Source: Streptomyces sp. NBC_00690 (GTDB taxonomy: Bacteria > Actinomycetota > Actinomycetes > Streptomycetales > Streptomycetaceae). Taken from it: DNA of 64,000 nucleotides. Location of the stretch: contig NZ_CP109009.1 of the NCBI RefSeq assembly GCF_036226685.1, positions 2,046,001 through 2,110,000 of the forward strand, in the 5' to 3' direction. Positions 8,114 to 23,554 of the stretch are shown in pieces. Each line of letters starts with the position of its first letter. Positions within the stretch are counted from its first letter, which is position 1. Under the pieces are notes generated by a model, which worked only from the letters and a program-made list of their open reading frames with translations, searched no databases and was not told the origin of the DNA. The position numbers and the translations under genes were made by a program.

Positions 8114-8195
8114 TGACCGTCTGACGACGCACTGACCGGTGATGCGCCTGCACGTCCGCCCTGGTGGTGGGCGTGTGGGCGGTGCGTCGTCAGCG

Positions 8196-8224
8196 GCTCG
8201 CCGGGCACGGGGGGCCCGGCGAGC
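8196..8224 (+). terminator. Hairpin terminator after the LPMO gene
   Basis: A perfect 11-bp inverted repeat (GCTCGCCGGGC / GCCCGGCGAGC) with a 7-base loop lies 82 bases past the LPMO stop and before the next rightward gene. It is GC-only with no T-run, as is common in this genus. Confidence 0.65.
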
Positions 8225-8349
8225 ATCAACCCCACCCTCCCCCGACCTGTTGGGCGACCGAGGGGCCCGACACCCGGACGGGCGCAATTCCGCGACCATT
8301 CGGACCCGTCCGGACTGCGCCTTCGCCGCCCCGCCCCGAACGTGGGGCC

Positions 8350-9444
8350 ATGACGCGCACACCCGACCACCCTCCCCCGGTCCAGCGAGGACCGGGATTT
8401 CTCGCCGAGGCCAAGGACGCGGTGACGCTGCGTGCCGCTGTGCTGGTGTTCGGGGTGCTCGCCCTGCAACTGGCCTTCATCACTTCGTACATCGGCGCCT
8501 TCCACGAACCGACGCCGCACGAGGTCCCGCTGGCCGTCGTCGCCCCGACGCAGCCGGTGGCCCGGGAGGCCGCCGGGCGACTCGCGGACCTGCCGGGAGA
8601 CCCACTGGATACGCGCGTGGTGACCGACGAAGCGACCGCACGCAAGCAGATCGAGAACCGTGAGATCGACGGCGCCCTCGTCGTGAGGCCCCGGAGCACC
8701 AGTGACACCCTCCTGGTGGCCAGTGCGTCCGGCGCGTCCCTCTCCCAGGCGATCGAAGAGACCGTGGCCGACGCCCAACGGGCCGAGCGGCGGTCCCTGA
8801 CGGTCGTCGACGTCGTTCCCGACTCCCCCGGTGACGCCCGGGGCCTGTCGTCCTTCTACCTGGTCATCGGTTGGTGCGTGGGCGGATACCTCTGCGCCGC
8901 GGTCCTGGCGATCAGTGCGGGGGCACGGCCGGCCAACACCCATCGGGCGCTCATCCGCCTCGGTGTCCTGCTCGTGTACTCCATCGTCGCCGGACTGCTC
9001 GGTACGGTGATCGCCGGCCCGATCCTGGGCGCTCTGACGGGCAGTGTTCCCGCGCTGTGGGGGCTCGGCTCGCTGCTGGTCTTCACCGTGGGCGCGATCA
9101 CGCTCGCGCTCCAGGGCCTCGCCGGGATCGTCGGCATCGGCCTGGCGATCCTGCTCGTGGTCGTCCTCGGCAACCCGAGCGCCGGCGGCGCCTACCCCTA
9201 CCCGCTGCTGCCGCCGTTCTGGAAGGCGATCGGGCCCGCGCTGCCGCCGGGGGCGGGAACCTTCGCGGCGCGCTCGATCACCTACTTCCGGGGCCAGGCC
9301 ATGACCGGTCCGATGCTGGTGCTCTCCGCCTGGGCGGTGGGCGGCGCCCTTCTGACCCTGCTCTGCGCACGGCTGCGCCGGGAACCGGCACCCGGGTCGG
9401 CCGAACGGTCCGGTCCGCCGTCGGCGGACCGGACCGGGGCCTGA
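8350..9444 (+). CDS. Membrane protein of the YhgE/Pip (DUF3533, ABC-2-like) type
   Basis: A 364-residue membrane protein. One helix near residues 28-48 (LRAAVLVFGVLALQLAFITS) is followed by a roughly 150-residue outside domain with PLAVVAPTQPVAREAAGRL, then five or so C-terminal helices (GWCVGGYLCAAVLAIS, LGVLLVYSIVAGLLGTVIAG, LWGLGSLLVFTVGAITLAL, IVGIGLAILLVVVLG, VLSAWAVGGALLTLL). This one-plus-five layout with an extracytoplasmic loop is that of the DUF3533/ABC-2 permease family, whose roles include export and toxin or phage interaction. The ATG at 8350 was preferred over a longer Pro/Arg-rich extension. No ATP-binding partner is adjacent, so function stays open. Confidence 0.75.
   Translation: MTRTPDHPPPVQRGPGFLAEAKDAVTLRAAVLVFGVLALQLAFITSYIGAFHEPTPHEVPLAVVAPTQPVAREAAGRLADLPGDPLDTRVVTDEATARKQIENREIDGALVVRPRSTSDTLLVASASGASLSQAIEETVADAQRAERRSLTVVDVVPDSPGDARGLSSFYLVIGWCVGGYLCAAVLAISAGARPANTHRALIRLGVLLVYSIVAGLLGTVIAGPILGALTGSVPALWGLGSLLVFTVGAITLALQGLAGIVGIGLAILLVVVLGNPSAGGAYPYPLLPPFWKAIGPALPPGAGTFAARSITYFRGQAMTGPMLVLSAWAVGGALLTLLCARLRREPAPGSAERSGPPSADRTGA
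9407..9435. terminator. Hairpin inside the 3' end of the membrane protein gene
   Basis: A perfect 13-bp inverted repeat (GGTCCGGTCCGCC / GGCGGACCGGACC) with a 3-base loop sits just before the stop of the rightward gene and about 20 bases past the stop of the convergent protease gene. It most likely terminates the leftward protease transcript, and possibly both. Confidence 0.55.
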
Positions 9445-9456
9445 GCCGGTGCCGGG

Positions 9457-10545
9457 TCAGCCGATCCGTGCGCCGTACGCCTGGAGCGCTTCGGTCACGG
9501 GCTGGAAGAACGTCACGCCGCCCGCCGAACAGTTCCCGCTACCACCGGACGTGAGTCCTATGGCGGTGGAACCGGCGAACAGCGAACCGCCGCTGTCACC
9601 GGGCTCCGCACACACATCGGTACGGATCAGACCGTTGACGATGTCCCCGTTCCCGTAGTTCACGGTGGCGTCGAGCGCGGTGACCCGCCCGCCGTGGACC
9701 TGAGTGGTGGACCCGCTGCGCTGCACCTGCATGCCGACGGTGGCCTCACCCGCCGAACTGATCGACTGCGCGCTGCCGTCGTACAGGTTGACCTCGCTGG
9801 GCTGTTGGGCGCTGCCGTTGTACTTCACCAACGCGTAGTCGTCGCCGGGGAAGCGCGAGTCGGCCATGGTGCCCAGCGCCGATCCGCCGGCCGAAGCGGA
9901 CCAGGAACTGCCCGCAGCCCCGCAGTGCCCGGCGGTGAGGAAGTGGGGGGCACCGTCCTTGACCACGTTGAAGCCGAGCGAGCAGCGTCCCCCGCCCGAG
10001 TGGATGGCGTCGCCACCGGCGATCAGGGGCGTGAACTCCCCCGCCGTACGGTGGAGTTCGACGCGCTCGCCGAGGTCGGCCACGACCGCGCCGAGCCGCT
10101 TCCAGTCGGCTCCCGTGACGGTGCGGTCAGCGGTGACCTGGACCTTGTTGGTCACGGGGTCCACCGCCCAGGAAGTGCCGGGCAGGGATGCCTTGTCGGT
10201 GAGGACCGCGCGGGCCGCCGCCAGTTGGTCCAGGCTGTGGGCCACCACCTCGGCCCGGGCGCCGGCCGAGCGGACGGACCGGGCGGCCTTCTCGTCGACG
10301 ACGTTCACCACCAGGGCTCGGGCATCGGTGTCGTAGTAGCTTCCGGCTGAGGCGCTCGGGCCCAGTTTCGCGGTGAGCGTCTCCCCGAGGCTGCCGGCCG
10401 TCGTGGCCGACAGCTTCTTCACGACGGGTTGTACCGTGGGCTCGCTCGCCCCCGCGCTCTGGATGGTGAGGGTCGCGCCGGTCAGTGCGATGACAGCTCC
10501 GCACACGGCTGCCATTCTCGTCCGGGATATGCGTCGGTGCTTCAA
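9457..10545 (-). CDS. Secreted S1-family serine protease, streptogrisin type, with pro-region
   Basis: A 362-residue preproprotease. A signal peptide with an Arg-rich start (KHRRISRTR) and hydrophobic core covers residues 1-34. An alpha-lytic-type pro-domain follows to about residue 174 ([20 protein letters not shown], then a second pro-lobe), and the mature enzyme starts near [20 protein letters not shown]. The catalytic triad is complete: His207 in TAGHC, Asp236 in PGDDYALV, and Ser318 in EPGDSGGS. Cysteine pairs around His207 and at residues 312 and 339 fit the two family disulfides. Length and pro-region match streptogrisin B/D-like chymotrypsin relatives, which autoprocess and digest extracellular protein. 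No C-terminal chitin-binding domain is present. Confidence 0.93.
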
Positions 10546-10865
10546 CGTCGACCTCCTGTGGGGCCGTGTCCGGGCGAAGAGGGTCCCGGGACACGGAGGA
10601 TGGGGCGCCCACTATGGCGAGACCGATGTAAGGCACACAAGACTGGCTACCGGACGGTCACACGACCATGCGCGGGCGTTCACCGCGCCTTCACGTCGTC
10701 CGCCCCGGCGGTTGTCACATCGTGGGGAATGTCGTGACTAAATGTCGACAAAGGTTCCCGCCGTCCAGGCTTCTGATGGGTAATCATCATGAGGTGGGGA
10801 ATGCCACAGACGCATGGAAGGCCACACAGGACACGTGGGGATCACATGGATCGGAGGGGGCGGGG
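10546..10865. other. Intergenic region between protease and hydrolase genes
   Basis: These 320 bases hold the two divergent promoter regions. An open frame from 10668 or ATG 10776 leads into the hydrolase but has a Shine-Dalgarno site only at 10866, so I treat it as untranslated leader. No repeat or RNA gene is evident. Confidence 0.4.
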
Positions 10866-11732
10866 GTGCGACGTCGGGTGCGCGCGGCGGACGGGCGGCA
10901 TCTGATGGTGGAGCGACTCGGCGATCCGCGGGGCAGGCCCGTCTTCCTTCTGCACGGCACTCCGGGTAGCCGACTCGGCCCGGCCCCGCGCGGCATGGTC
11001 CTCTACCAGAGCCGTACGCAACTGATCGCCTACGACCGCCCCGGGTACGGCGGTTCGGACCGGCTCGCCGGGCGCAGCGTGTGCGATGTCGCCGAGGACG
11101 TCCGCGCCATCGCCGATGAACTCGGGCTCGAACGCTTCGCCGTGGTCGGCCGTTCCGGTGGCGCGCCCCACGCCCTGGCGTGCGCGGCCCTGATGCCGGA
11201 CCGGGTCACCCGTACCGCAGCACTGGTCACCCTCGCTCCGCGGGATGCCGACGGCCTCGACTGGTTCGAGGGAATGGCGGCGTCCAACGTCCTGGAGTAC
11301 ACCTCGGCCGTCACCGACCCGGCCGGACTGACAGAGCGGTTCATCCTGCGGTCCGCCGAGATCCGGAAGGACCCGATACGGCTCCTCAACGACCTTCGGC
11401 GGGAGTTGACCGACTCCGATCGGATGGTGGTCAAGGACGCCGGCGTGCGGTCGATGCTGCTTCGCAACTACCACGAGGCGCTGCGGACTTCCGCCTACGG
11501 ATGGATCGACGACGCGCTCGCCTTCAGCAGCCCCTGGGGCTTCGATCCTGCGGACATCAGCGGGCAGGTGATGCTCTGGCACGGGGAGCAGGACGTCTTC
11601 TCACCCGTGGGGCACTCGCGCTGGCTGGCCGAGCGGATTCCCGGCGCCACGGCGGTCCTTGAGCCCACCGCGGCCCATTTCGACGCCCTGCACGCGCTGC
11701 CCGGCATCCTCACCTGGCTGTTGGACGACTGA
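10866..11732 (+). CDS. Alpha/beta-fold hydrolase
   Basis: A 288-residue alpha/beta hydrolase. The oxyanion-hole strand reads FLLHGTPGSRLG, the nucleophile elbow is VVGRSGGAPHAL (G-x-S-x-G with Ser as nucleophile), the acid is in LWHGEQDVFSPV, and the base histidine lies near the C-terminus in EPTAAHFDAL. This layout fits esterases, epoxide hydrolases and C-C hydrolases. I chose GTG at 10866 because GGAGG lies about 8 bases before it; an ATG at 10776 would add 30 polar residues outside the fold. It is a single gene with no operon partner; the natural substrate is unknown. Confidence 0.85.
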   Translation: MRRRVRAADGRHLMVERLGDPRGRPVFLLHGTPGSRLGPAPRGMVLYQSRTQLIAYDRPGYGGSDRLAGRSVCDVAEDVRAIADELGLERFAVVGRSGGAPHALACAALMPDRVTRTAALVTLAPRDADGLDWFEGMAASNVLEYTSAVTDPAGLTERFILRSAEIRKDPIRLLNDLRRELTDSDRMVVKDAGVRSMLLRNYHEALRTSAYGWIDDALAFSSPWGFDPADISGQVMLWHGEQDVFSPVGHSRWLAERIPGATAVLEPTAAHFDALHALPGILTWLLDD

Positions 11733-11859: not shown

Positions 11860-14800
11860 TCACACGGCGAGCGGCTCCAGGTCCCGGTGCACCCGTCGCT
11901 CATCACGGGCGATCCGGGTCAGTGCATGGTCCTCCCCCACCTGTCGCTGGAGTTCCTCCACGGTTTCCAGGCGCAGGGCCGTGGCCTCGTCCTTGCGCCC
12001 GAGCATCCCCAGCGTCACCGCGAGATTCGAAGCGATGCCCAGCACTTCGGGGTGGTAGGGGCCGAGGACCTCGCGCAGCCGGGTGACGGTTCGCTGCTCG
12101 ATCTGGAGGGCGTGCTGAAGTCCGCCCAGGTCCGCCTGTGCGTTGGCGAGGTTGATGGTGCTGTAGAGGGTGTGGGGATGTGCCTCTCCCAGTACCTCGG
12201 TCATCGTCTTGACCACCTTCTGCAACAGCTGCTCCGCGGTCTCCGGATCGCCGCAGCCCCAGTGGAAGATGCCCAGGTTGTTGATGGCTGCCAGGGTGTA
12301 CGGATGGCGCTCACCCGGCACCAACATGTACTCGTCCACCACCTCCTGTGCCAGATCGCGGGCGGCGACCGGCTCATTGGCCGCGAAGAGGTCCGCCGCC
12401 AGATTGAGGTCACAGGCGAGCAGATCCGGATTGGCCGAGGTGTAGCGGGCGCGGTAGCGGTTGCGGGTCGCGGTGGTCAGTCGGCGGGCGTCCTCCAGCC
12501 GACCGGCACGGCGCAAGGAGACCGCGAGGCTCTTCGCCGCGGCAAGGGTGCCGGGGAAGGTACGGCCCAACTGTTCCTTGTGGAGTTCGTAGGTCCGGCT
12601 CAGCAAGGAGACGGAGTCCTCGTACCGGCCCACTTCCCGCAGGTCCCTGGCGAGGTTCATGGCGGAGGAGAGGGTGTACGGGTGCTCCGGTCCCAGCACC
12701 TCGGTCCGACGGTCGAAGACCTCCTGGTCGATCTCCAGCGCACGGGAGTACAGACCGGTCATCCGGAGGTTCAGCGCCAGGTTGTTGGCGGCGGCCAGGG
12801 TCCGCGGGTGGGACTCGTGGAAGATCTGGCTGAAGCCCTCATGGGCCTCGGTCGCCAACTCCATGGCCTCGGCGTACCGGCCGAGCGTGCCGAAGTCCAT
12901 GGCCAGACCGCTGGTGGTCATGTACGTGTGCGGATGGGTGGGACCGAGCACCTCCCGCTGACGCTCCAAGGTCACCTCGTCGAACTCCTTGGCCTCCACA
13001 TACCGGCCCTGCGAACGGTAGATGTTGGAGATGTGGAAGCGCAGGTACAGGTACTGGAGGTCCTTGTTGCCCAGCTTGGCCCGCCAGACCGTGCGGACCT
13101 CGTTGGCGAGCGTGGAGGCGCTGGACCAGTCGCCGCGCTTCCACAGATATCGCACCCGGTCGATGATCAGTCGGCGGGTCTCGGGCTCCTTGCAGTCCCA
13201 CGCCTCCGACGTGCCCAGATGCGGCCAGATGATGGCGAACCGCGGCCAGGTCTCGGGGTTGTCGATGGGCTCGTCGTCGTCGGGGCGCGCTCCCGCGAGC
13301 ACACGGTGCACGGCGTGCCGCGCGTCCCGCTGCTCCTCCTCGGTCAACTGCGCCCGGATCACGGCCTGCACCAGCCGATGGACCTGGATGCTGTTGTTGA
13401 CCTGGTCCACCTTGGCCAGCGCGAAACGGCCGATCTCCCGGATGACCCGCCCGAGGACCAACTTCTCCTGGAGGGAGGCGTCATAGGGCTTCAGGGCCTC
13501 GATCATCTCCTTGCTGTAGAGGAGGTTGGCCGAGATGGGCTCGGGGGCGAAGAACGCACAGAGTTGCAGCAGCCGCACCGCGGCGGGTGATCGCTCCTTG
13601 AGCCGTTCGATGGAGACGTTCCAGGTGGCGGCGACCGGCTGGGGGTAGCCGGCCGGCTGGTTCAGCGCGAGGACGCTAGTGGCCTGGACGCGCAGTTCTT
13701 CGAGGTAGTCGGCGACCGGGGTCGCCGTTTCGGCGATCCAGGCAGCGGCCTGTTCCACGGCCAGCGGAAGGTCACCGACCGCGGTGGCCACCTGGTCGGC
13801 GTCGGCCAGCGTCAGTCCGCGGGCCCTGCGCTGAAGGTGTTCGATCGACTCCTCGCGGGTGAAGACGTCGATGGGGAGGGCGTCCCCGTACTGGGACCAG
13901 GTCTGGTTGCGGGAGGTGACCAAGATGTGGCCGGGCCCCTGCGGAGGGAAGAACCGTTTCAGGGCCTCCGGGTCGTCGGCGTTGTCGAAGACCAGCAGCC
14001 AACGGGAGGAGGGCACACCGCGCCGCAGCAGATCGATGGCCTCACGCGACGCCGACGCCATGTCCTCACCGCCCTGGGCCCCTAGGCGCACGGCGAGTTC
14101 GGCGAGCCCTGCGATCACGTCGTCCGGCTGTTCCGCCGGGATCCACCACACCAGGTCGTAGTCCGCCATGAACCGGTGGACGTACTCGATGGCGACCTGC
14201 GTCTTGCCCACGCCACCGAGCCCGTAGAGGGTCTGCGGCTGGGGCAGCACGGCGGCCACGGTCATTCCGCCGCCGAGCCGGTCACGCATCCGTTCCAGCG
14301 CCACCGACCGCCCGGTGAACCCGGGGTTGCGGGGCGGGGCGTTCCAGATCTTGGGCACCGTGCCGGGGAAGCGGGGGCCCGGCGAGGCGGTATCCGGCAG
14401 TTGCGCTGGCCGGTCCAGCGCCCGCAGCAGAGCGGCGGACGCCTGCACCTCGTCGAGCCGGAAGAGGTCCACGGGATTGCGGTCGAGATAGGGCGAGGTC
14501 AGTCGTACGTCCCCGACCCGGATGGGCAACAGATGGTGGCGACCGCCGGTCGGGTCCTCCGCCGCCGCCCGCTGCCACAACTCCGTGGCCCGGGTCGACT
14601 TGAGGTAGGAGCCGGACAGCAGGATCACCGTTCGCGACGCCGAGTCGGCCGTCGCCTCGTCGTCGGGGTGCGGTTCGGCGGTGACATCGCGCGGAATGAC
14701 GCGGAAGCCGGCCCGGGAGAGGACAGACTCGATCCAATCCGCCCACATGCGGTTCTCCGCCGCATAGCTGAGGAAGAGATCGGCGGGGAGTGCGGGTCGA

Positions 14801-15798
14801 CGCCGGGTGAAGGCGTCGCGGATGCGCAGTCGGATCTCGTCGCTGACCGCGGGCATGGAGGTGATCTCCCGCTCTGTGATCACCGTCGCCAGCCGTTCGA
14901 AGGCGGAGAGCAGAGAATTGGTGAGTCCCGTCTCGTCGCCGAAGGTGGCGAGGGTCTCCTCGTAGGCGTAGTACGGCCGGTAGGGGATTTCCACCGCGCC
15001 CCAGTACGAGGTGAGTTCCTCACCCGCGAGACCGCTGGGGAAGCCGTCGAACTTCACCCGGGCGAGAGCCCGCCCCGCGTCGGCCTTCTCCTTCTCCCCC
15101 TCGTCGATCCGCATGGGCACGGGATAGATCTTGATGCCCCTGCCGCCGTACCGTTCGTCGATCTGCCGGGCCACGGAAGCCGCGCCGTCGATGGACTGGT
15201 CGCTCAGGGTGAAGCAGTCGACGAGGATGTCGGGGAGGTGCACCGTACAGATGTCGGCGATGTCGCTGAGCCCGGTGCGGCTGTCGATGAGGACGTAGTC
15301 GTAGTTCGCCTTCATGTCATCGCGCAGCGCGTCGAAGAAGAGGCCGCCGCCGAGTCGATCGTAGAAGTTGTCCCAGTCGAAGGTGGACACCGTCGCGGAG
15401 TACTCGCGGTTCTGCCGACCCGCTGAGACGAAGTCGAGGGTGCCGCCGTCCGGGAACTCCCAGCCGAGGTTCTCCGGGGTGAGGGAGACGGCGTGCGGTT
15501 GGATGCGGGCGTAGTCCAGGTGCCAGTCGTCACGGCGCGCCGTCTCCGGAGTAATGGCGGCCCATGCGTACTCGGTGATCAGATCGATGACACCCGTGGT
15601 GGCACCGAGGGTGGAGGGATCGAGGAAAGGGTGGAAGAACCGGTGCAGGCCGGGTGCTTCCAGGTCCCAGTCCACGGCCAGGACGCGCTTGCCGTTGGCC
15701 GCGAGGATCCACGCCGTGTTGGCCAGGGCCATCGTGCGCCCCGTGCCTCCTTTGTACGAGTAGAAGGTGACGATGCGTCCGTCACGATTGGCTGTCAT
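11860..15798 (-). CDS. fxsT: FxSxx-COOH system tetratricopeptide protein: MinD-like ATPase + TIR + NB-ARC + TPR
   Basis: A 1312-residue multidomain protein and last gene of the FxS operon. Residues 1-310 form a MinD/ParA-like P-loop ATPase (deviant Walker A KGGTGRT at 16-22, AVDWDLEAPG at 41-50, LIDSRTG near 170). Residues 338-465 are a TIR domain (ADLFLSYAAENRMWADW; VILLSGSYLKSTRATELW with Glu406 at the catalytic position of NADase TIRs). Residues 490-700 are an NB-ARC module (GLGGVGKT at 526-533, Walker B LLVFDNAD at 601-608, DLPLA near 676). From about 880 to the end lie repeated tetratricopeptide units containing variants of ALEID...RRTEVLGPEHPYTL. This is the layout of STAND signal-transduction proteins that oligomerise on sensing a ligand. 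I set the start at the ATG of MTANRDGR, overlapping fxsC by 17 bases; the frame continues 72 residues upstream inside fxsC. The name is informal. Confidence 0.9.
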   Translation of the reverse strand: MTANRDGRIVTFYSYKGGTGRTMALANTAWILAANGKRVLAVDWDLEAPGLHRFFHPFLDPSTLGATTGVIDLITEYAWAAITPETARRDDWHLDYARIQPHAVSLTPENLGWEFPDGGTLDFVSAGRQNREYSATVSTFDWDNFYDRLGGGLFFDALRDDMKANYDYVLIDSRTGLSDIADICTVHLPDILVDCFTLSDQSIDGAASVARQIDERYGGRGIKIYPVPMRIDEGEKEKADAGRALARVKFDGFPSGLAGEELTSYWGAVEIPYRPYYAYEETLATFGDETGLTNSLLSAFERLATVITEREITSMPAVSDEIRLRIRDAFTRRRPALPADLFLSYAAENRMWADWIESVLSRAGFRVIPRDVTAEPHPDDEATADSASRTVILLSGSYLKSTRATELWQRAAAEDPTGGRHHLLPIRVGDVRLTSPYLDRNPVDLFRLDEVQASAALLRALDRPAQLPDTASPGPRFPGTVPKIWNAPPRNPGFTGRSVALERMRDRLGGGMTVAAVLPQPQTLYGLGGVGKTQVAIEYVHRFMADYDLVWWIPAEQPDDVIAGLAELAVRLGAQGGEDMASASREAIDLLRRGVPSSRWLLVFDNADDPEALKRFFPPQGPGHILVTSRNQTWSQYGDALPIDVFTREESIEHLQRRARGLTLADADQVATAVGDLPLAVEQAAAWIAETATPVADYLEELRVQATSVLALNQPAGYPQPVAATWNVSIERLKERSPAAVRLLQLCAFFAPEPISANLLYSKEMIEALKPYDASLQEKLVLGRVIREIGRFALAKVDQVNNSIQVHRLVQAVIRAQLTEEEQRDARHAVHRVLAGARPDDDEPIDNPETWPRFAIIWPHLGTSEAWDCKEPETRRLIIDRVRYLWKRGDWSSASTLANEVRTVWRAKLGNKDLQYLYLRFHISNIYRSQGRYVEAKEFDEVTLERQREVLGPTHPHTYMTTSGLAMDFGTLGRYAEAMELATEAHEGFSQIFHESHPRTLAAANNLALNLRMTGLYSRALEIDQEVFDRRTEVLGPEHPYTLSSAMNLARDLREVGRYEDSVSLLSRTYELHKEQLGRTFPGTLAAAKSLAVSLRRAGRLEDARRLTTATRNRYRARYTSANPDLLACDLNLAADLFAANEPVAARDLAQEVVDEYMLVPGERHPYTLAAINNLGIFHWGCGDPETAEQLLQKVVKTMTEVLGEAHPHTLYSTINLANAQADLGGLQHALQIEQRTVTRLREVLGPYHPEVLGIASNLAVTLGMLGRKDEATALRLETVEELQRQVGEDHALTRIARDERRVHRDLEPLAV

Positions 15799-17116
15799 CC
15801 GTGTCCTCCGCATCGGGGGCTGTTCCACGCGTCGGTGGGGCGAAGTGGGTGGTGCCGTACTCGGCCATCGGGCCGCGGAGTCTGGGGCGCTCGGGCCGCG
15901 AGGAGCCGGCGGGCGGGGTCGGCGGATAGACCGCGGCGTGCCGGAGGTATTCCTGGGCCGCCGCCTCCACGACCTGTGGCAGCATCTGCCCGAACGCCTC
16001 CATGCTGAGCACACCCTTGGCCGCGGCCCGACAGGCGGCCCGGCCCTGTCTCATCTGGTGCGGCATGGTCCGCTCCAACTTCTCGACGAGTTGTGCCTCG
16101 GAGGTCCGGCTCTGGGGGTCATCGCGGTTCCAGGGGACGACGACGCTCACCCAGGGCCGGGGTTCCGCGTCGAAGGCGGCCAGCCGGGCGCAGCGATCGT
16201 CGTCCTCCAGCGCCCAGCGGTCGACGAGGAGTATCTCGGGACGGGTGGGCGGCTGATGGAGATCGGGTGGCACCTCGTGGTCGAACGAGGAGATCGTGGC
16301 CTGGTAGTTGAGGGAGCGGACCAGGTCCTGCGCCACATACGCGAGGGGGCGCGCGGACTCGGGGTGGTAGGGGTTCCAGTCCTGCGACTGCTTGCCGTAG
16401 TAGGCGGGAGAGCGACCGTCGGGCAGATCGTGCCGGGTGGGAGCGGCGATCATCAGATGCATGGGACGGGGGCCGCCGGTGGCCTTGCCGAAGGCACTGG
16501 GCGCATGGCGGTAGTCGACGGGACTGCCGGAGGCTATGCGGGTGGTGTCGGCGACGCTGACGATGCGCTTGGCCAGTTCATAGACCGCGGCTTCGTACTC
16601 CTCGGCGAATATCCGCAGTTTGATCAGGCCGTAGAGGCCGTCGGTGACATAGCGGTCGCCGAAGGCGCCGTGGTTGAACTGGAGTCGTTCAGCGGGGCCG
16701 GGTAAGTGCTCGGGCGGTATGGGGACCCAGAGGGCCGGGACGATCGCCTCGGCGGACCGGTTGCTCTTGGCCTGGTGGTAGATGGCGCGTTGGGCGAAGG
16801 CGTACCACTCCTTGCCGCACATCTCGCTGGCGAAGTAGCGGGGGGAGAAGAGCGGGACGAAGACCCGGCAGTTGGCCAGGACCTCGCCGAGGCGTTCCGA
16901 CCAGCCTTCTCCCGAACGGATCTCACGGTCGATGAATCCGGCCTGAGCCCCGGCCGGGAGATCGGTCATGGCCATCACATGGCCGCAGAGATCGCGGAAC
17001 AGCCGTTCCACCCACATGTCGGGGTCGGGGCCGCCCGCCCCGTAGCGGGGGGTGTGCGCGTAGCTCAGGAAGAAGTATGGGCGATGGTCCGCCGTACGCT
17101 GCGCTGAATCCGACAC
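15782..17116 (-). CDS. fxsC: TIR-like protein FxsC
   Basis: A 444-residue FxsC-type protein. The N-terminal domain (about 10-160) is TIR-like: YFFLSYAHTPRYG, the acidic helix, then CRVFVPLFSPRYFASEMC and GKEWYAFAQRA, where Glu103 occupies the position of the catalytic Glu of NAD-cleaving TIRs. A second alpha/beta domain follows (PMHLMIAAPTRHDLP, EILLVDRWALEDDD, WVSVVVPWNRDDPQ), characteristic of FxsC and looking like a further TIR/Rossmann-type fold. The C-terminus is Pro/Thr-rich and disordered. FxsC is a fixed partner of the FxsA precursor and FxsB maturase; its role is unproven. It may be a scaffold, a sensor, or an NAD-consuming effector. Confidence 0.9.
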   Translation of the reverse strand: MSDSAQRTADHRPYFFLSYAHTPRYGAGGPDPDMWVERLFRDLCGHVMAMTDLPAGAQAGFIDREIRSGEGWSERLGEVLANCRVFVPLFSPRYFASEMCGKEWYAFAQRAIYHQAKSNRSAEAIVPALWVPIPPEHLPGPAERLQFNHGAFGDRYVTDGLYGLIKLRIFAEEYEAAVYELAKRIVSVADTTRIASGSPVDYRHAPSAFGKATGGPRPMHLMIAAPTRHDLPDGRSPAYYGKQSQDWNPYHPESARPLAYVAQDLVRSLNYQATISSFDHEVPPDLHQPPTRPEILLVDRWALEDDDRCARLAAFDAEPRPWVSVVVPWNRDDPQSRTSEAQLVEKLERTMPHQMRQGRAACRAAAKGVLSMEAFGQMLPQVVEAAAQEYLRHAAVYPPTPPAGSSRPERPRLRGPMAEYGTTHFAPPTRGTAPDAEDTDDSQS

Positions 17117-17228
17117 ACGACCCCCGTCCTGTGTGAACGCCCACTTCCCCAGCCGGCCTGGTCATGGGCCGCGGGCGAATTCATCATTGCGGAGCACGGC
17201 ACGCTCCACCCCCCTGCCGTTCAGTCAA

Positions 17229-18011
17229 TCAGCGCCGCTTTTCGGTCATCCACTCAACGGCGTGATCAACGGCGGCCCTGACCGAGAACAATCTTGCGGG
17301 CCTTCCTCCCAGTTGTCCCTTCTGCTCCACTCCCCAGCCGAAGGCGGCACCGATCGCGCCGAAATCGCTCTCGTCGAGTTGGACGTCCTCGTACTCCGTC
17401 CATTCCTTCCCGCCGTCAGGAAGGCCAACTACACAACGATACGACCGCAGCGGGGCTTTCGTCCGGTATTCGGCAAGATGAAATGCGGTGCATACGTCGA
17501 AATCCACATCGATCATGAGCACATGGGCGGCCACCCGATACAGAGCGCCGAGCGGGGAGTTCTCACCGAGGTGGGAGGTGAGGATGTGACGGTCGAGGAG
17601 TTCTTCGGCGCGAGGTCCGATGGCCGCGAACGAGGTCTGCGGATGGGCGCTGCGCACGGCGCCCGGAGCGGTGCGGATCGACTCGGCCAACCGGCCCATG
17701 CCCTGACTCGGCGTACACGCCGGGTCGAAGGCCGGCATGTCCGCTCGGAAGGTCGCCGCCTGCTCGGGTGTCATTCCGCGTACCCGGGCGCGGTGGAGAT
17801 CGGAGGTGTCCGAGTTCCCCGCGGTGAAGGCGGGCACCACCAAGGTCCCGTCCGGGCCGACCGCCTCCAGCAGGGCGTCCCGCAGGGTGTCGCTGTGGAG
17901 TCCCGTGGACCGCAGGGAGGCGTGGATGAGCAGGGTCATCCCCGGGCGGACGCCGACGGCTCGCAGGGACGGCACCAGTCGTGCAGGTGCCGGTGTCCCT
18001 GACTCAGCCAT
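17229..18011 (-). CDS. AAC(3)-family N-acetyltransferase encoded within the FxS operon
   Basis: A 260-residue aminoglycoside 3-N-acetyltransferase-fold protein (Antibiotic_NAT). The family opening LIHASLRSTG, the segment DGTLVVPAFTAGNS, QGMGRLAESIR near the middle, SAHPQTSFAAIG, and ENSPLGALYR are all present, as in AAC(3) and YokD-type enzymes that use acetyl-CoA. I set the ATG at 18011, which overlaps the fxsB stop by 8 bases; the upstream extension to 18311 lies inside fxsB. Its location between fxsB and fxsC argues for a task in the FxS system, such as N-acetylating the peptide product, rather than aminoglycoside resistance. That is inference from position. Confidence 0.85.
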   Translation of the reverse strand: MAESGTPAPARLVPSLRAVGVRPGMTLLIHASLRSTGLHSDTLRDALLEAVGPDGTLVVPAFTAGNSDTSDLHRARVRGMTPEQAATFRADMPAFDPACTPSQGMGRLAESIRTAPGAVRSAHPQTSFAAIGPRAEELLDRHILTSHLGENSPLGALYRVAAHVLMIDVDFDVCTAFHLAEYRTKAPLRSYRCVVGLPDGGKEWTEYEDVQLDESDFGAIGAAFGWGVEQKGQLGGRPARLFSVRAAVDHAVEWMTEKRR

Positions 18012-20580
18012 GGCAGCAGCTCTGGTCTTTCCTGCCCTGCTCCTGTTGGCCGCAGCACTCCAGGTCGAGATGGCCAGCGGCACCGACAAGGGGCAACGGC
18101 GATCGTCCGGCCGTGCGGGGCCCGGTCGGATCCGAGGCGTTCCGCGGCGGGGGCGCGAGATATGTCGAGTGACCAGAACCTGGACGATCAGGGTCTGCGC
18201 GGTCCAGGCGCCCGTGAGCAGAGACCCCGTGTTCAGGGCCGGCAAGACCAGAACCCGCAAGACCAGAGTCCGCAAGATCAGGCCCTGAGCGCCCAGGGTC
18301 GAAATGATCAAGGCCGGAATGATGCGCCAACTCCCGGCGCAGTTGGGCCAGCAGACGACGGCCGCCCACGGTCAGCTCCGCGGCCCCCTCCAGTGTGTCG
18401 AGGGCACGACCGGCCTGCTTCGCCCCCTCGGGGTCGAAGGCGGCCAGTGCCGCCCGCTCGCTGATTCCCGCCAGCAGTTCGGACACCGGTACCTCCTCGT
18501 CCTGCCACGGCGCCGGGTGACGCCACCAGCCGTCCTGTGCATAGAGATCGGTGATGTCGAGCAGGGCGTTGAGCTTCGCCCGCCGCGCACCCCGCAGCAA
18601 GTCGATCGCGAGCTGTTCGGGACGGGGTGCGGGTGCAAGGCCCAGCGCTCCATAACCGTGCCCGCGCAGGGCCTGCTCACGCGTGGACGACCGGCCAAAA
18701 ACCGCTGGTACGGAAGGGGTGTCGGAGGTGAGGGGGGTGAGGGTGCCGAGGCAGTGGGCCACCTCCGCCGACTGCTCGGGTGCGACAGCACGGATGATCT
18801 TCCAGGCGTCGGTGAACGCTTTGTCCCAGTCGCGGACCTCTGCGGCGCTCAGTCGGGGCAGGGCTGCCGATCCGAAGCAGTCCCGGTAGCGGTCGAGGTC
18901 GTCGAGGCGCAGCAGGGGCGCACCCGCAGTGCCACCGACCGTGCGCACGGGGTGCCAGTGGTCGTCGGCGACTGCCAGCCGCACCCGGCGCGAGGTCCCG
19001 CCGACCGTGGCCGTGAACCCGTCCGCGGTGGGTTCCACCTCGGCCGTGCCCCGCTCGTGGATCCCGCTCTCGTGGTCGTCTCCGATGCGCAGCACACCCA
19101 GACCGGGCAGGTGCAGCAGACCGTGTTCGTACGGCACGGGGACCGGGGTGGGAACGCCGGCGGCCACCAGCGCCGAGGCCAGGTAGCACGGCAGCCGCAG
19201 GGCTCTGGCCACGGCGTCGGGCCGTCCCATGAGCAGCGCTTGCAGGGCGTCCCCGAGCCAGGTGCGGGTGTAGGGGTGGCTCCAGACGGAGTCGAGGACG
19301 TCGCCGTCCGCGTCCAGATCGAGCGTCAACTGCCAGGCCCGGTCCCAAGCCGGCCCCCCGCGACCGTCGAGTTCGCCGTGGAGACGGGCGAGGAGGGTAC
19401 GGGTCAACTCCCGGTGCTCGGCCAGCAGTGCGCCGGGATCGGTGAGCGCGGCGGGTACCAGGGCGTCGGCGGTCCGGCATTCGATGCCGCGGATGAGCCC
19501 TTCGAGGTCCGAGCAGTAGACGGAGGGACTGTCGAAGCCCCCGCGTTCGCTGTAGCGGTGGGTGTAGAGCCCGCCGCCGCAGGAGCGTACGACGGGGCAC
19601 CGACGGCAGGTTCCGCTCACTCCGGCGAGTTCCTGTTGACGGGCTTTGACCCCCGGGTGCGCGGCGACCTCGTCGAAGGTGTGGTGGAAGACGTCGAAGC
19701 CGGTGGCGGCGGCTCCTTCGTAGGCGCTCTTGAGGGAGTCGACCTGTTCCAACGTGCCGTCGGTCTCCACGACGACGAGATCGGTGGGTGCGAGGCCCAG
19801 CGATTCGGTGAGGCTCGGACCGCCGGCGAGGGTGGAGAGCACCGACTCGAAGAGGCGTACCGGTACGCGTCTGCCCAGGGCGTCCCAGTGGTCGAAAGCG
19901 GTCAGCAGCCAGTCGGCATAGGCCGTGGGCGAGCCGTTCGGGCGGGCCGGGGGCGCGTCCCAGGTGGCGTGCGGCAGCAGGAAGTCGATGCGGGGCGGGT
20001 CCAGGGCGGCCAGGGCGTCGTAGACGGCGACGGGGTCGTTGGCCACGTCCACGGTGCACAGGAGGCCGAGGTACAGATGGCGGTAGCGATCCTCGCGCAG
20101 GAGATCGACGGCGCGTAGGACCAGTGGATGGCTGGTGCGGCCGTCGGCGAAACGTCGGTGGCGGTCATTCGCGGTGCGGTCGCCGTCGAGTGAAATGCCG
20201 ACCTTGACGTGGAATTCGTCGAACAGATCGAGATATCGCGGGCTAAGTTGTAAGCCGTTGGTGTGGATGCGCAGATCGAGTTCCGCGAGGGAATCGAGGG
20301 CGCGGGTGAGCTCCTCACACACACGTCGCAATCGAGCGGGCCCGGCCAGTAGAGGCTCCCCTCCGTGCAGGATCACTGACACGGAGGGCAGGGCATGGCT
20401 CTTAGCATGCTCAGCCAGTCGCAGAGCTGTCCAAGAAATCGCTTCGTCAGAGATTGCCTTGGGGCGGGTAAGCCAGCTCTGATCAGCGTGTTCATAGATG
20501 TAGCAGTGGTCACATGCGAGATCGCACCTGCTGTGTACCTTCAGAACGATCTCGCGGAATGGGACCAGTGGTCCTGTCAT
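18004..20580 (-). CDS. fxsB: FxsB radical SAM/SPASM cyclophane-forming maturase with fused degenerate HExxH-type domain
   Basis: An 858-residue peptide maturase. The radical SAM core begins with C19-x3-C23-x2-C26 for the 4Fe-4S cluster, followed by HGGEPLL, IHTNGLQLS and VKVGISLDGD. A SPASM-type cluster region carries Cys325, Cys328, Cys334 (CRRCPVVRSCGGG) and Cys356. FxsB enzymes cross-link aromatic and nearby residues in the FxS motif of FxsA into a strained cyclophane. From about residue 390 a second domain resembles the HExxH putative peptide-modification family, but where HExxH should precede KLNALLD the sequence is R663-G-A-R-R667, so the metal site looks lost. A long Gly/Asp/Ala repeat tail ends in paired cysteines (ECCGQ and SCCHG). 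It starts 9 bases after fxsA and overlaps the acetyltransferase gene. Confidence 0.92.
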   Translation of the reverse strand: MTGPLVPFREIVLKVHSRCDLACDHCYIYEHADQSWLTRPKAISDEAISWTALRLAEHAKSHALPSVSVILHGGEPLLAGPARLRRVCEELTRALDSLAELDLRIHTNGLQLSPRYLDLFDEFHVKVGISLDGDRTANDRHRRFADGRTSHPLVLRAVDLLREDRYRHLYLGLLCTVDVANDPVAVYDALAALDPPRIDFLLPHATWDAPPARPNGSPTAYADWLLTAFDHWDALGRRVPVRLFESVLSTLAGGPSLTESLGLAPTDLVVVETDGTLEQVDSLKSAYEGAAATGFDVFHHTFDEVAAHPGVKARQQELAGVSGTCRRCPVVRSCGGGLYTHRYSERGGFDSPSVYCSDLEGLIRGIECRTADALVPAALTDPGALLAEHRELTRTLLARLHGELDGRGGPAWDRAWQLTLDLDADGDVLDSVWSHPYTRTWLGDALQALLMGRPDAVARALRLPCYLASALVAAGVPTPVPVPYEHGLLHLPGLGVLRIGDDHESGIHERGTAEVEPTADGFTATVGGTSRRVRLAVADDHWHPVRTVGGTAGAPLLRLDDLDRYRDCFGSAALPRLSAAEVRDWDKAFTDAWKIIRAVAPEQSAEVAHCLGTLTPLTSDTPSVPAVFGRSSTREQALRGHGYGALGLAPAPRPEQLAIDLLRGARRAKLNALLDITDLYAQDGWWRHPAPWQDEEVPVSELLAGISERAALAAFDPEGAKQAGRALDTLEGAAELTVGGRRLLAQLRRELAHHSGLDHFDPGRSGPDLADSGLAGSGLAGPEHGVSAHGRLDRADPDRPGSGHSTYLAPPPRNASDPTGPRTAGRSPLPLVGAAGHLDLECCGQQEQGRKDQSCCHG

Positions 20581-20589
20581 TCGGCCAGT

Positions 20590-20754
20590 CTAGAGCGCCG
20601 AGTTGAAGGTCGACGCCCGAAGGACGCGGTCGGCGGTGACGGGGATGATCCGCGCAAGCTTCTTGGCCGCCTCGCCGCCCCGGGCGTCGATCTGCGCCAG
20701 AGGGACGCGGGAGATCTTCGCAGATGCGAAGGCTGCGGAGGTGTGAATTGCCAT
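20590..20754 (-). CDS. fxsA: FxsA precursor peptide ending in FNSAL (FxSxx-COOH)
   Basis: A 54-residue ribosomal peptide precursor, the first gene of the operon. The C-terminus is Phe50-Asn51-Ser52-Ala53-Leu54, an exact F-x-S-x-x-COOH motif. The preceding part (SRVPLAQIDARGGEAAKK and LARIIPVTADRVLRAS) is a basic leader of the usual FxsA type. FxsB is expected to join Phe50 to Ser52, giving a three-residue cyclophane (triceptide). I chose the ATG of MAIHTSAAF (AAGGA upstream); a GTG 16 codons earlier is possible. The fxsB start follows after 9 bases. Whether the modified C-terminus is cut free or stays on the protein is unknown. Confidence 0.9.
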   Translation of the reverse strand: MAIHTSAAFASAKISRVPLAQIDARGGEAAKKLARIIPVTADRVLRASTFNSAL

Positions 20755-20900
20755 GGGGGGCCGTCCTTGATCGTGTGTCGAACGCGAATCACCACGCACC
20801 ATTGCGGTGGTGGCGGCACGACTTTACTCTCATGGCCACTCGCAGCAACTCAGGTCGACGTGACAGCACAAAAGAGTTGCGTCACATTCCCTGGAGCGAG

Positions 20901-20921
20901 GGCGGATCAAGTCATTCCGCC
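20901..20921. promoter_or_regulatory. Inverted repeat in the fxsA / SLATT divergent region
   Basis: GGCGGA and TCCGCC flank a 9-base spacer, about 36 bases before the SLATT gene ATG and inside the 203-base gap between the two divergent starts. It could be an operator or a small hairpin; chance cannot be excluded in GC-rich DNA. Confidence 0.3.
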
Positions 20922-20957
20922 TAAAGGGTGAAGGTCATAACCGCAGACAGGGGGCAC

Positions 20958-21890
20958 ATGACCGGGATTCCCGGGCCAACGGGCAGCATCGTGTTCCGTA
21001 ACAGGGATCTACCGGCTCTCTTCCATCACACCGACGCCATGGCCATCTCCCACCAGCGGCAGGCGGTCGGCTCCATGAAGCACCAACTCCTCCTTCTCGT
21101 CCTGGGTGCCGCCGCCTCCACACTGCCCGCCTCGGCGAAAGTGGGAGAGTCCATCCAACTCTCGGGCGTTTTAGCGGTATTGGCGTATGCCGGGGTACTT
21201 CTCATCGGCTACCGGGCCAGTAGGCACAGCGCAAAGTCGCATTGGCAACTCAATCGTTCAGCCGCCGAGTTCATCAAGTCGTTGTGCTGGCGCTACGCGG
21301 TGCACGGGGCACCCTTCACCACAGCGGCCACCCAATCGGACGAACTGTTCGCCGACCGCTTGGAAGAAGGACTTCGGGAGCTGGCGAAAGTCGGCTGGGA
21401 AGACCCTCGCACCGGTGGGAACCCGATGGCGAGCAAGGAAATGATCACGAAGGCGATGCGTCGGCTGCGATCCCAACCATTCAGCATTCGCAAAGAGACG
21501 TATGTCAGGGACCGATTGATTGAACAGCGCAACTGGTACCACCGCAGCACCGCGAACTCCCGACGAGCCACCCGATTATGGTCGTTGTCGATCGGTCTGC
21601 TGACTCTGGCAGCACTGTTCCTTTCGCTTTTGCACACCTTTTCGCTGACTGGCTCTCTTCATATCGCAGGAGCGCTGTCCGCGGCGGCGGCCGGCTCTCT
21701 GGCGTGGAGTGAGGTGCGTCGGCACCAACCGTTGATCGCCGCGCATTCACTCGTGGAGGAGGACTTGGCAGCCATGCACACGGCGATGGAGTCCTCTGTC
21801 ACCGAGGCGCAGTGGCCTTCGGCGGTGTACGAAACCGAGCGCATCGTCTCACCGCAGCACACGGACTGGCTGGCACGGCACCGCAGTTGA
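20958..21890 (+). CDS. SLATT/DUF4231-type membrane protein beside the FxS locus
   Basis: A 310-residue protein with two pairs of membrane helices: HQLLLLVLGAAASTL and LSGVLAVLAYAGVLLIGY near residues 40-85, and LWSLSIGLLTLAALFLSLL and LHIAGALSAAAAGSLAW near 220-260. Between them is a charged helical domain with DELFADRLEEGLREL and RDRLIEQRNWYHRS, and after them a short cytoplasmic helix (SLVEEDLAAMHTAM). This is the DUF4231/SLATT pattern; SLATT proteins are predicted membrane effectors activated by nucleotide second messengers. The opening FRNRDLPALFHHTDA is typical of actinobacterial members. I chose ATG 20958, which has AGGGGG just upstream, over GTG 20928. It is divergent from fxsA and convergent with the SLOG gene. 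Confidence 0.75.
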   Translation: MTGIPGPTGSIVFRNRDLPALFHHTDAMAISHQRQAVGSMKHQLLLLVLGAAASTLPASAKVGESIQLSGVLAVLAYAGVLLIGYRASRHSAKSHWQLNRSAAEFIKSLCWRYAVHGAPFTTAATQSDELFADRLEEGLRELAKVGWEDPRTGGNPMASKEMITKAMRRLRSQPFSIRKETYVRDRLIEQRNWYHRSTANSRRATRLWSLSIGLLTLAALFLSLLHTFSLTGSLHIAGALSAAAAGSLAWSEVRRHQPLIAAHSLVEEDLAAMHTAMESSVTEAQWPSAVYETERIVSPQHTDWLARHRS

Positions 21891-21979
21891 TCGCGATGAG
21901 CCCGTGCCGCACCGGCGACGGTCGGCACACCACCTCGGCCCTCGGCCGCCTCCTCGGAGGCGGCCGGGGGCACGCCACC

Positions 21980-22459
21980 TCAATCCCGTACGAGCCCCTC
22001 GCGCCAGATGACGGTCACCGGGCGACCCAGCCGCCGGGCGTAGTGGACGATGTCCGCCGTCCCACCCGGACCACGGGCCGGACAGCCGTCCCACACCGCG
22101 AGAAGGTGGTCACAGTTGTCAGCGATGAACGCCCCCGCCGCGTAGTACGCCTCATCGGTGGCGTGGGCGAACTCCAGTCGGACTTCCCGGGTGGCCCGCC
22201 GTCTCAGGGCCTCGTAGCCCGCCCGCTCCCCCGGCGCGGCGAATCCGTCCGCGTAGTCACCGCTCGGCACCACCACCGTCAACTCGGCGCCGCAGGCGAG
22301 CGCGAGGTCGGCGAAGATCTGGTCGGCGCCGACGGCAAGACTGGACAGGGCCTCCAACGCGCCGCCGTGCTCGTGGAGGACGGCGAGGATCTCCGTTTGA
22401 ACGTGCCCCACGGCCTCGACGGGGATGTTCCGATGACCGGTCACTCCGATGCGCTTCAC
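21980..22459 (-). CDS. SLOG-type Rossmann-fold protein
   Basis: A 159-residue small Rossmann-like protein. Motifs read as SLOG/LOG-like: an N-terminal GVTGHR strand and loop, SSLAVGADQIFADLAL, ELTVVVPSGDYADGF, and near the end LLAVWDGCPARGPGGTAD with the glycine-rich nucleotide loop. Relatives include lysine-decarboxylase-like LOG, DprA and the SLOG sensors that bind or make nucleotide ligands in conflict systems. It uses a GTG start; GAGGGGG lies about 8 bases upstream. It converges on the SLATT gene with an 89-base gap; SLOG-SLATT pairing is known from predicted nucleotide-dependent immunity systems. Enzymatic phosphoribohydrolase activity is possible, but the PGGxGTxxE signature of LOG enzymes is not intact. 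Confidence 0.75.
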   Translation of the reverse strand: MKRIGVTGHRNIPVEAVGHVQTEILAVLHEHGGALEALSSLAVGADQIFADLALACGAELTVVVPSGDYADGFAAPGERAGYEALRRRATREVRLEFAHATDEAYYAAGAFIADNCDHLLAVWDGCPARGPGGTADIVHYARRLGRPVTVIWREGLVRD

Positions 22460-22585
22460 TCCTGGGTCGCCCCCTCGTCCGCAGCACCTGATGCCCCGTC
22501 CATCGTCCCAGAAGCAGGCGCGGCGTCGAGCCCCCGGTGACCTGCGGCGGACGAGGGCACAACGCCTCTGCGATGCGGCGCAGGT

Positions 22586-23554
22586 TCAGTCGGCCAGGAG
22601 ATTCCGCTCCCCTGCGGCGACCGGCACCGACAAGGTGTTCCCCGGCGGTGGGAAGGGACAGATGAAGTGCTCGGCGAAGGCGCACGGGGGCAGTTGGGCC
22701 CGGTTGAAGTCGACGAGCACAGACCCGTCCGCGGTCGGAGCCGCCGGCCGCAGGAAGCGGAAGCGATAGCTACTGCTCCCACTGGTGGCATCCGCGAAGA
22801 CCGCCCAGAGGGAACCGTTGTCCTCCACGGCCACGTGCAGGGTGTGGGCCTGTCCGTCCAGCGTGAAGGAGATCTCGCCGTCGAGGCCGAGACCACGCTG
22901 CTGTCCATCGGCGTTCTCCACGCGGATGCTCTGCGTCCGCTCATAGCGGTGAAAGCGCCCGGGCAGCGCCCAGCGGGGATCGTAGGCGGTCGTGTCGATG
23001 CCGCGGAAGGAGCGGCGCGCGGGTGCGTCCGGGTCGAAGTCGCGTACGGCCCACAGCCCTTCACGGCGCAGCACGACCAGTCGTCGCGCGCCCTGGGCGA
23101 CCCGGGAGCCGTCGATCGGCCCCTGGTCGGCGGTGAGCCGGACACTGCCGGCGAAGGGCTTGTCGTCGACGGTGAGACCGTCCGTCGCGGTGGCGGTGAG
23201 CACCAGTTGGTCACCGTCGTCGCTCCAGAGCCCCGCAACACCCGGGAGGTGACCGCCCGGATGGTCGTCGAGCCAGTGCGTGCCGGTGAGCGAGAGCGGT
23301 CCATGGGGTGCGGAGATCGTAGCGATGCGCCGCTCGTGCCAGTGCTGCCACTCGTTCGGCGCACGGAGATCGACGTCCGTCGCTTCCCCGGGCCGACCGG
23401 ACTGCTGCTCGCCCGCCCCTGCGGAGCCGCTCGCCCCGCCGAGGCTGACCCGGGCACCCGGTGTGCCGGGGCCGCCCCCAGCGGCGGAACGCTCGTGCGC
23501 CCCACCCGATCCGCCCCGCCCGTCCCCGTCGCCCGCTCGCTCATCGGCTCTCAT
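22586..23554 (-). CDS. DUF1684-family protein
   Basis: A 322-residue DUF1684 protein. The first 60 residues are Gly/Ala/Ser-rich and probably disordered. The conserved domain starts near WQHWHERRIATISAPHGPLS, followed by THWLDDHPGGHLPGVAG, and ends with the diagnostic LVDFNRAQLPPCAFAEHFICPFPP and NTLSVPVAAGER. This second half is the most conserved part in all DUF1684 proteins; Cys and His residues there could bind metal. Its start is 4 bases after the preceding monooxygenase stop, so it is the third gene of that operon. The function of the family is unknown; the context suggests a role alongside flavin monooxygenases. Confidence 0.8.
   Translation of the reverse strand: MRADERAGDGDGRGGSGGAHERSAAGGGPGTPGARVSLGGASGSAGAGEQQSGRPGEATDVDLRAPNEWQHWHERRIATISAPHGPLSLTGTHWLDDHPGGHLPGVAGLWSDDGDQLVLTATATDGLTVDDKPFAGSVRLTADQGPIDGSRVAQGARRLVVLRREGLWAVRDFDPDAPARRSFRGIDTTAYDPRWALPGRFHRYERTQSIRVENADGQQRGLGLDGEISFTLDGQAHTLHVAVEDNGSLWAVFADATSGSSSYRFRFLRPAAPTADGSVLVDFNRAQLPPCAFAEHFICPFPPPGNTLSVPVAAGERNLLAD

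Follow-up and report, generated by a model that had tools for sequence, protein, structure and literature searches.

Gene content of the fxs locus

The window analysed here (a 64,000 nt stretch of Streptomyces sp. NBC_00690, contig NZ_CP109009.1, positions 2,046,001 to 2,110,000) carries an FxSxx-COOH peptide locus, in which the genes for a precursor peptide (fxsA), its radical S-adenosylmethionine (SAM) maturase (fxsB), an AAC(3)-family acetyltransferase and two TIR-domain proteins (fxsC and fxsT) form a single leftward operon. It is bordered by genes for a SLATT membrane protein and a SLOG protein on one side, and for an alpha/beta hydrolase on the other. An earlier note on this DNA, made from the letters alone, had described the leftward array, and the genes lie where it placed them, with their families matched in NCBIfam or Pfam; the spacing it gave, from -17 bases between fxsC and fxsT (taking 15798 as the fxsT start) to +112 between AAC(3) and fxsC, agrees with the open reading frames (ORFs). 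The divergence of the SLATT gene from fxsA was confirmed by its position and by SLATT_3/SLATT_1 family matches, and the SLOG-type nature of its neighbour by the fold of an AlphaFold2 model, with the correction that the SLOG gene is convergent with the SLATT gene. The gene list of the note was right for the genes it named but began at 11860, and the conserved locus reaches past this point to the hydrolase gene at 10668-11732, tail to tail with fxsT. The features are:

10668..11732, plus strand: alpha/beta hydrolase (Abhydrolase_1; nucleophile elbow GRSGG), its gene convergent with that of FxsT
11860..15798, minus strand: fxsT; KGGTGRT ParA/MinD-like domain, degenerate TIR, NB-ARC/STAND, DUF7779 and TPRs
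15782..17116, minus strand: fxsC; N-terminal TIR (FLSY; Glu103) and FxsC C-terminal domain
17229..18011, minus strand: AAC(3)-family acetyltransferase (Antibiotic_NAT)
18004..20580, minus strand: fxsB; cyclophane maturase of the radical SAM/SPASM type, whose extension has RGARR in place of HExxH
20590..20754, minus strand: fxsA precursor peptide, 54 amino acids, C-terminus FNSAL
20783..20820, minus strand: hairpin predicted in the fxsA 5' leader
20821..20848, minus strand: conserved promoter-like element of fxsA, TTGC...TAAAGT
20928..21890, plus strand: tandem SLATT_3-SLATT_1 membrane protein, divergent from fxsA
21980..22459, minus strand: SLOG protein, YpsA/DprA-like in the fold of its model

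The starts of fxsT and of the AAC(3) gene were taken as the ATG codons at 15798 and 18011, within open frames that extend to 16014 and 18311, respectively. The AAC(3) protein matches Pfam Antibiotic_NAT but falls under the NCBIfam AAC(3) cut-offs (best 143 bits against 270), and so does not score as a curated aminoglycoside-resistance enzyme; its gene is absent from a number of loci that are complete in the other genes.

Association of SLATT and SLOG with fxs

The 101 genomes sampled from the genus of the window gave 101 FxsB matches, which were divided into a long class (39, at least 540 bits) and shorter or partial matches (62), with linkage taken as a distance of no more than 15 kb. SLATT and SLOG were both linked to 26 of the 39 long-class FxsB genes and to one of the 62 others; a further one of the 62, in G027, is a fragment of a split locus that carries the pair. 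Near FxsB, the two occurred only together, and these places account for 27 of the 36 SLATT_3 matches and 27 of the 90 SLOG matches in the sample. Among 55 SLATT_3-FxsB pairs lying in the same genome, 27 fell within 15 kb, compared with about 0.2 expected at random, a figure that ignores shared descent. When the SLATT label was mapped onto a tree of 79 FxsB rows, of which 44 carry it, five changes of state were needed against a mean of 26 after shuffling, which indicates that most of the SLATT-fxs linkage is one old association; the tree was built by a quick method and has several long branches, and the placement of one locus (L088) in it is unsure. The FxsB of the window lies nearest to those of named Streptomyces.

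The pair is a lineage-specific add-on to fxs. It was found at 27 of the 101 loci (28 if the split G027 locus is counted) and was missing from 74, so that the tie between fxs and SLATT/SLOG suggested by the earlier note fails as a general feature under the note's own refuting condition, absence from most fxs loci, and holds within one large FxsB clade. A search with the FxsB of the window, biased to near relatives, recovered 46 named loci, of which 30 had both genes in the flanks examined, two (both Streptacidiphilus) had SLATT only and 14 had neither. Neither SLATT nor SLOG was seen in the examined flanks of 11 Micromonosporaceae loci. A phylum-wide search with NF040587, positive in at least 5 of 296 genomes with six candidates scored per genome in the rows seen, misses many matches for that reason and was not used. 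Mobile elements gave distant matches. Thirteen plasmid records hold relatives of FxsT, none covering 80% of the query (best by score, 38% over 64% of it); six of these are annotated as fxsT and three are conjugative. Eleven plasmid records hold SLATT relatives (25-28% identity), and the radical SAM matches in the phage collection are partial and distant (22-26% among the 10 matches listed). The genome of the window also has two short-class FxsB loci accompanied by neighbouring FxsT-like genes (L090 and L091; G000:C1, near 8603361 and 2688680), but no SLATT_3 match besides that of the window.

Rearrangement and loss at the site

The fxsA-fxsT operon is inverted between the SLATT and hydrolase genes in 8 of 26 loci, while the SLATT-SLOG pair stays in place. 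The layouts are SLOG> <SLATT fxsA> in 18 loci and fxsT> SLATT> <SLOG in eight; for the inverted set, gene order was read in six of the eight and hydrolase positions are known for all eight. A different change is seen in G006 (L088), where SLATT, SLOG and AAC(3) are 73%, 68% and 69% identical to their nearest tree relatives (L085, L087, L073), and FxsA has the FDSAL end also found in L085 and L087. The FxsB of this locus, by contrast, belongs to the short class, and FxsC and FxsT are only 33% and 41% identical to their best matches. We read this locus as a probable swap of the core partners beside a kept SLATT-SLOG pair. A BTAD-domain regulator and an AAA protein are encoded close by. In the Streptacidiphilus loci, SLATT lies past the hydrolase with no SLOG nearby, and in L033 it comes from another SLATT subfamily. 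A series of losses was also seen at the same site (L092-L096 and L089), with the hydrolase alone in four genomes, a decayed hydrolase and SLOG remnant in one, and SLATT-SLOG alone in one.

A hydrolase linked to fxsA and fxsB

Relatives of the hydrolase, which align from about residue 62, gave at least 42 matches in 40 of the 101 genomes at E-values of 1e-60 or below. In most genomes the search scored 20 of some 30-80 candidates, and weak relatives may be missed. The gene lies within 15 kb of 36 of the 39 long-class FxsB genes and of none of the 62 others; one of the three long-class genes without it (G032) sits at a contig end. Among the six matches away from a long-class FxsB, that of G027 belongs to the same locus across split contigs, those of G031, G021, G029 and G084 stand alone at the same site, and that of G004 is decayed and lies beside a SLOG remnant. 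It is present in 8 of the 11 Micromonosporaceae loci, and in L029, L030 and L075 the only remaining genes are those for the hydrolase, FxsA and FxsB. The hydrolase thus accompanies FxsA/FxsB more often than SLATT or SLOG does. It reaches no NCBIfam cut-off; the nearest solved structure is 9wlv (E-value 2e-47), followed by proline iminopeptidase.

FxsA and its maturase

The FNSAL end of the precursor and the FxsB-family maturase, together with FxsC and FxsT, place the locus among the FxSxx-COOH systems. FxsA scores 27.4 bits against the FxSxx-COOH model TIGR04268, just below its cut-off of 28, and FxsB 583.5 bits against TIGR04269 (NCBIfam cut-off 370). F-x-S-A-L ends were found in 48 of 54 pair-bearing loci (duplicates included), and the individual termini were FNSAL (37), FSSAL (8), FDSAL (3), FSSSL (2), FNSSL (2), FNSAV and FNSGV. 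The CxxxCxxC motif of FxsB and its further cysteines are conserved in more than 97% of 77 long-class rows. We take IPR026335 to be the FxsB family. Because its member MscB joins Phe C4 to Ser C-beta (accessible part of PMC11002830), a Phe-Ser cross-link is expected, by analogy, in the FNSAL of FxsA.

The extension of FxsB matches NF040587, named 'inactivated beta-hydroxylase extension' in NCBIfam, and also the hydroxylase domain model TIGR04267 (48.1 bits, cut-off 40). An HExxH motif, mostly VHEFQH, occupies one alignment column in 14 of the 77 long-class rows, where the FxsB of the window reads RGARR. It was found in none of the 50 rows with SLATT and SLOG and in 14 of the remaining 27. It is also gone from related rows without the pair (L072, L076, L029, L075), indicating that it was lost before, or beside, the gain of the SLATT-SLOG pair. 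The 14 intact rows, none of them with the pair, are L033 (Streptacidiphilus), L077, L079 and 11 from Micromonosporaceae (L035-L037, L040-L042, L044-L046, L048 and L049), several of whose genera we presume to belong to that family.

Two TIR proteins

FxsT scores 1053 bits against NF040586 (cut-off 300) and carries the KGGVGR AAA domain NF047398, and FxsC matches NF040588 and TIGR04276 above their cut-offs (all NCBIfam). In FxsC, the L, S and Y of the TIR motif FLSY are present in all 62 rows (first position F in 56, Y in 6), and a Glu that we take to be the catalytic residue of TIR domains is present in 60. The matching column of FxsT, in a poorly conserved domain, holds E in only 19 of 63 rows, while its ParA-like KGGTGRT motif and STAND P-loop are conserved across rows. 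Because the Glu is kept in FxsC and mostly not in FxsT, we infer from the alignments that FxsT would sense and recruit, and that FxsC would act. A PDB sequence search with the FxsC profile gave no match.

SLATT and SLOG proteins

The membrane protein has SLATT_3 and SLATT_1 domains in tandem (NCBIfam), an architecture that is not peculiar to fxs, as three unlinked SLATT proteins of the genus share it. The SLOG-type protein matches no Pfam or NCBIfam family, and a PDB sequence search with its profile gave no match. Its AlphaFold2 model, built from 25 rows, has a predicted local distance difference test score (pLDDT) of 93.4, and its structure matches are to YpsA (2nx2; E-value 2e-9, query TM-score (TMq) 0.76), DprA and LOG. 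According to the accessible part of PMC9503650, YpsA-like SLOGs include sensors of cyclic ADP-ribose, and TIR-SLATT neighbours are known in phages. Phage defence by DRT10 needs its SLATT protein (accessible part of PMC12632851, a preprint).

Upstream region of fxsA

Of 43 regions upstream of fxsA, 40 carry a TAAAGT element, mostly with TTGC before it, and a predicted leader hairpin comes after the element. Covariation was counted in the six inverted-layout loci only (L052-L057), with the structure drawn from one of them, which favours the result; here the 10-pair hairpin shows two-sided changes at five pairs, and 88% of cells are paired compared with 57% or less when the structure is slid. Four of the five measures did better than every shuffle, or almost every one; the number of further pair types did not (131 of 500). 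Control through the element or hairpin, as RNA or as an operator (DNA dyad), is possible. Rfam found nothing at 20500-21000. As a candidate operator, a GTGAC-N16-GTCAC palindrome upstream of fxsA was rejected, since it is present in the window only (1 of 43 upstream regions).

Neighbouring genes

The scanned flanks carry genes for TctC, lytic polysaccharide monooxygenase, ABC-2-like, protease, luciferase-like, DUF1684, DUF5685, SepF and acyl-CoA dehydrogenase proteins. No exporter was found within the fxs operon itself by NCBIfam and Pfam scans of its proteins. An ABC-2-like membrane protein, scoring below the Pfam cut-off, is encoded at 8164-9444, 2.4 kb past fxsT. In many loci (L008, L012, L047 and others), secreted alpha-lytic-type proteases in the same orientation bracket the fxs block; in the window a single one was seen, at 9457-10545. 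An ORF at 22456-23544 was rejected as a gene (junk-like translation, no family match), the real gene there being DUF1684 at 22586-23554.

A proposed mechanism and its alternatives

Actinobacterial stand-alone FxSxx peptide systems have been described as conflict systems (Kaur et al., eLife 2020, PMC7159879), and the accessible part of that paper gives them a TIR/AP-ATPase/TPR protein with an inactive MinD-like domain, suggests the peptide to be a toxin or signal, and mentions SLATT with GTPase systems only. The earlier note had proposed the peptide as ligand, guard or toxin for a TIR-STAND sensor with a membrane effector. Gene content fits this, and the toxin or signal idea is thus already in print, but the SLATT/SLOG part of the proposal applies to one lineage. 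Our preferred reading, held tentatively and at somewhat less than even confidence, is that the locus is a lineage-specific elaboration of such a conflict system, with modified FxsA gating FxsT/FxsC and the SLOG-SLATT pair as output.

Built on what was observed (which genes are present, their order and linkage, the motifs kept and lost, and the SLOG fold of the model), the functional steps that we infer would run from FxsA to FxsT, FxsC, a nucleotide, SLOG and finally SLATT. FxsB would form a Phe-Ser cross-link within the C-terminal F-N-S of FxsA, and the cyclophane peptide would remain cytoplasmic, because the operon has no exporter and the hydroxylase domain no HExxH. FxsT, a STAND ATPase with TPRs, would sense the peptide and, on a change in its level or state (through infection or another insult), oligomerise on ATP; its non-catalytic TIR would recruit FxsC, whose catalytic TIR would make a nucleotide derived from nicotinamide adenine dinucleotide (NAD). 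The YpsA-like SLOG would bind or break this nucleotide, and the tandem SLATT would act at the membrane as a pore or by arrest. The hydrolase may trim or recycle the peptide, and AAC(3) may be an optional modifier. The fully specified version, a Thoeris-like cascade in which the TIR-STAND receptor guards the cross-linked peptide or binds it as its ligand, the degenerate TIR recruits the catalytic one, SLOG reads the nucleotide, SLATT executes and the hydrolase resets the peptide, is rather unlikely to be correct in every part.

Several observations weigh against the preferred reading. SLATT/SLOG are absent from 13 of the 39 long-class and 61 of the 62 other loci, which means that the core works without them. 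The scanned flanking genes are not defence genes, PADLOC matches are partial only (PDC-M28B to the ParA-like region of FxsT, pVip to the radical SAM protein), and neither source gave direct evidence of an anti-phage role. The model of the SLOG protein matches the SLOG domain of ThsA weakly (E-value 2e-3, TMq 0.47), and its kinship with YpsA is suggested by a fold match, without a sequence tree. The FxsC model is poor (pLDDT 63), its best TIR-domain Foldseek match having an E-value of 4e-3 and none reaching 0.001. In G055 (L089), SLATT-SLOG stands alone with the operon and hydrolase lost, and in most main-clade loci the chromosomal neighbourhood is the same, so that common descent may account for much of the linkage.

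These last two points are also what an independent two-gene neighbour would leave behind, that is, a SLATT-SLOG pair sharing its site with fxs by descent and without functional coupling. The lone hydrolases at that site (G031, G021, G029, G084), the decayed hydrolase with SLOG remnant in G004 and the separate, divergent transcript of SLATT agree with this. We consider such independence unlikely, though with a real chance of being right: the linkage survives both operon inversion and a very different FxsB-C-T block, a separate SLATT association exists in Streptacidiphilus, and 27 of the 36 SLATT_3 matches lie by FxsB. Alternatively, the system may serve development or stress rather than phage defence, with TIR-STAND-SLATT tuning membrane physiology or differentiation; the peptide could report redox or iron-sulfur/SAM state, since its maturation needs a radical SAM enzyme. 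Stable chromosomal position, clustered inheritance, the conserved promoter-like element, the leader hairpin that covaries in some of the loci and the mostly metabolic genes of the scanned flanks would suit such a sensor, but TIR, STAND, SLOG and SLATT are recurrent parts of conflict systems (accessible parts of PMC7159879 and PMC9503650), and loss and decay at the site would be odd for a housekeeping sensor, making this explanation quite improbable. It is very improbable that the cluster makes a peptide toxin or antibiotic, with the other genes for control or self-protection. A precursor of a ribosomally synthesised and post-translationally modified peptide (RiPP) with its maturase is present, the accessible part of PMC7159879 allows for a 'peptide toxin or signal', the hydrolase and acetyltransferase are possible processing or inactivating enzymes for a product, and there is the ABC-2-like protein noted above (8164-9444), 2.4 kb past fxsT and under its Pfam cut-off; however, the operon itself has no exporter, and the near-constant C-terminus of FxsA (F-x-S-A-L in 48 of 54 pair-bearing loci) is unlike that of diversifying toxins.

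The SLATT-SLOG pair hints at the output of FxSxx, which may be an NAD-derived signal passed to a membrane effector. The presence of one catalytic and one non-catalytic TIR suggests in which order the parts act, and the hydrolase is a component of FxSxx that had been overlooked. With HExxH lost in the pair-linked lineage, the peptide there is predicted to be cross-linked but not hydroxylated. The label 'conflict system' is thereby turned into gene-by-gene predictions and a concrete signalling model, and loci with the operon inverted or lost, the pair lost or the FxsB block different provide natural variants for comparison.

Comparison with known systems

Among the top matches in the open-library literature, we found no functional study of FxsA-T, no function for FxSxx systems, and no report of SLATT, SLOG or hydrolase with fxs. 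MoxR ATPase and vWA proteins (as in the VMAP/MoxR-vWA ternary system) and a SMODS-type nucleotidyltransferase (as in SMODS/CBASS with SLATT) were both absent among the 20 scanned ORFs. As in DRT10 (UG17 reverse transcriptase, non-coding RNA and SLATT; accessible part of PMC12632851, preprint), SLATT partners a signalling or defence unit, but the scanned window genes include no reverse transcriptase. Thoeris (ThsB TIR, ThsA SIR2-SLOG) is resembled in the combination of a TIR that retains its Glu (FxsC, 60 of 62 rows; putatively active, judging from sequence) and a SLOG-fold protein. In ThsA, however, the SLOG/macro domain is fused to an effector such as SIR2, whereas here SLOG is a stand-alone protein of 159 amino acids with no SIR2 among the scanned ORFs; SLATT would be the executor, and the STAND protein with its modified peptide would be the trigger. 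The triceptide/3-CyFE enzymes (XncB, OscB, MscB; accessible part of PMC11002830) offer a parallel for maturation, the Phe-Ser bond of MscB fitting F-N-S, with a like product expected only by analogy.

The closest relative is the stand-alone FxSxx system, as given in the accessible part of PMC7159879, with which the locus shares FxsA, an FxsB of the radical SAM/SPASM type and a TIR/AP-ATPase/TPR protein bearing a MinD/ParA-like domain. It differs in the zincin-like peptidase of that core, which probably corresponds to the HExxH domain; in the window, the FxsB protein carries only an inactivated extension without this motif. The CRP-like regulator of some such systems has no counterpart among the 20 scanned ORFs, which do not include every nearby ORF. 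Conversely, SLATT, SLOG, AAC(3) and the hydrolase are features of the window beyond that description. The fxs core is therefore known; what appears to be new is that it goes together with a SLOG-SLATT pair and a dedicated hydrolase.

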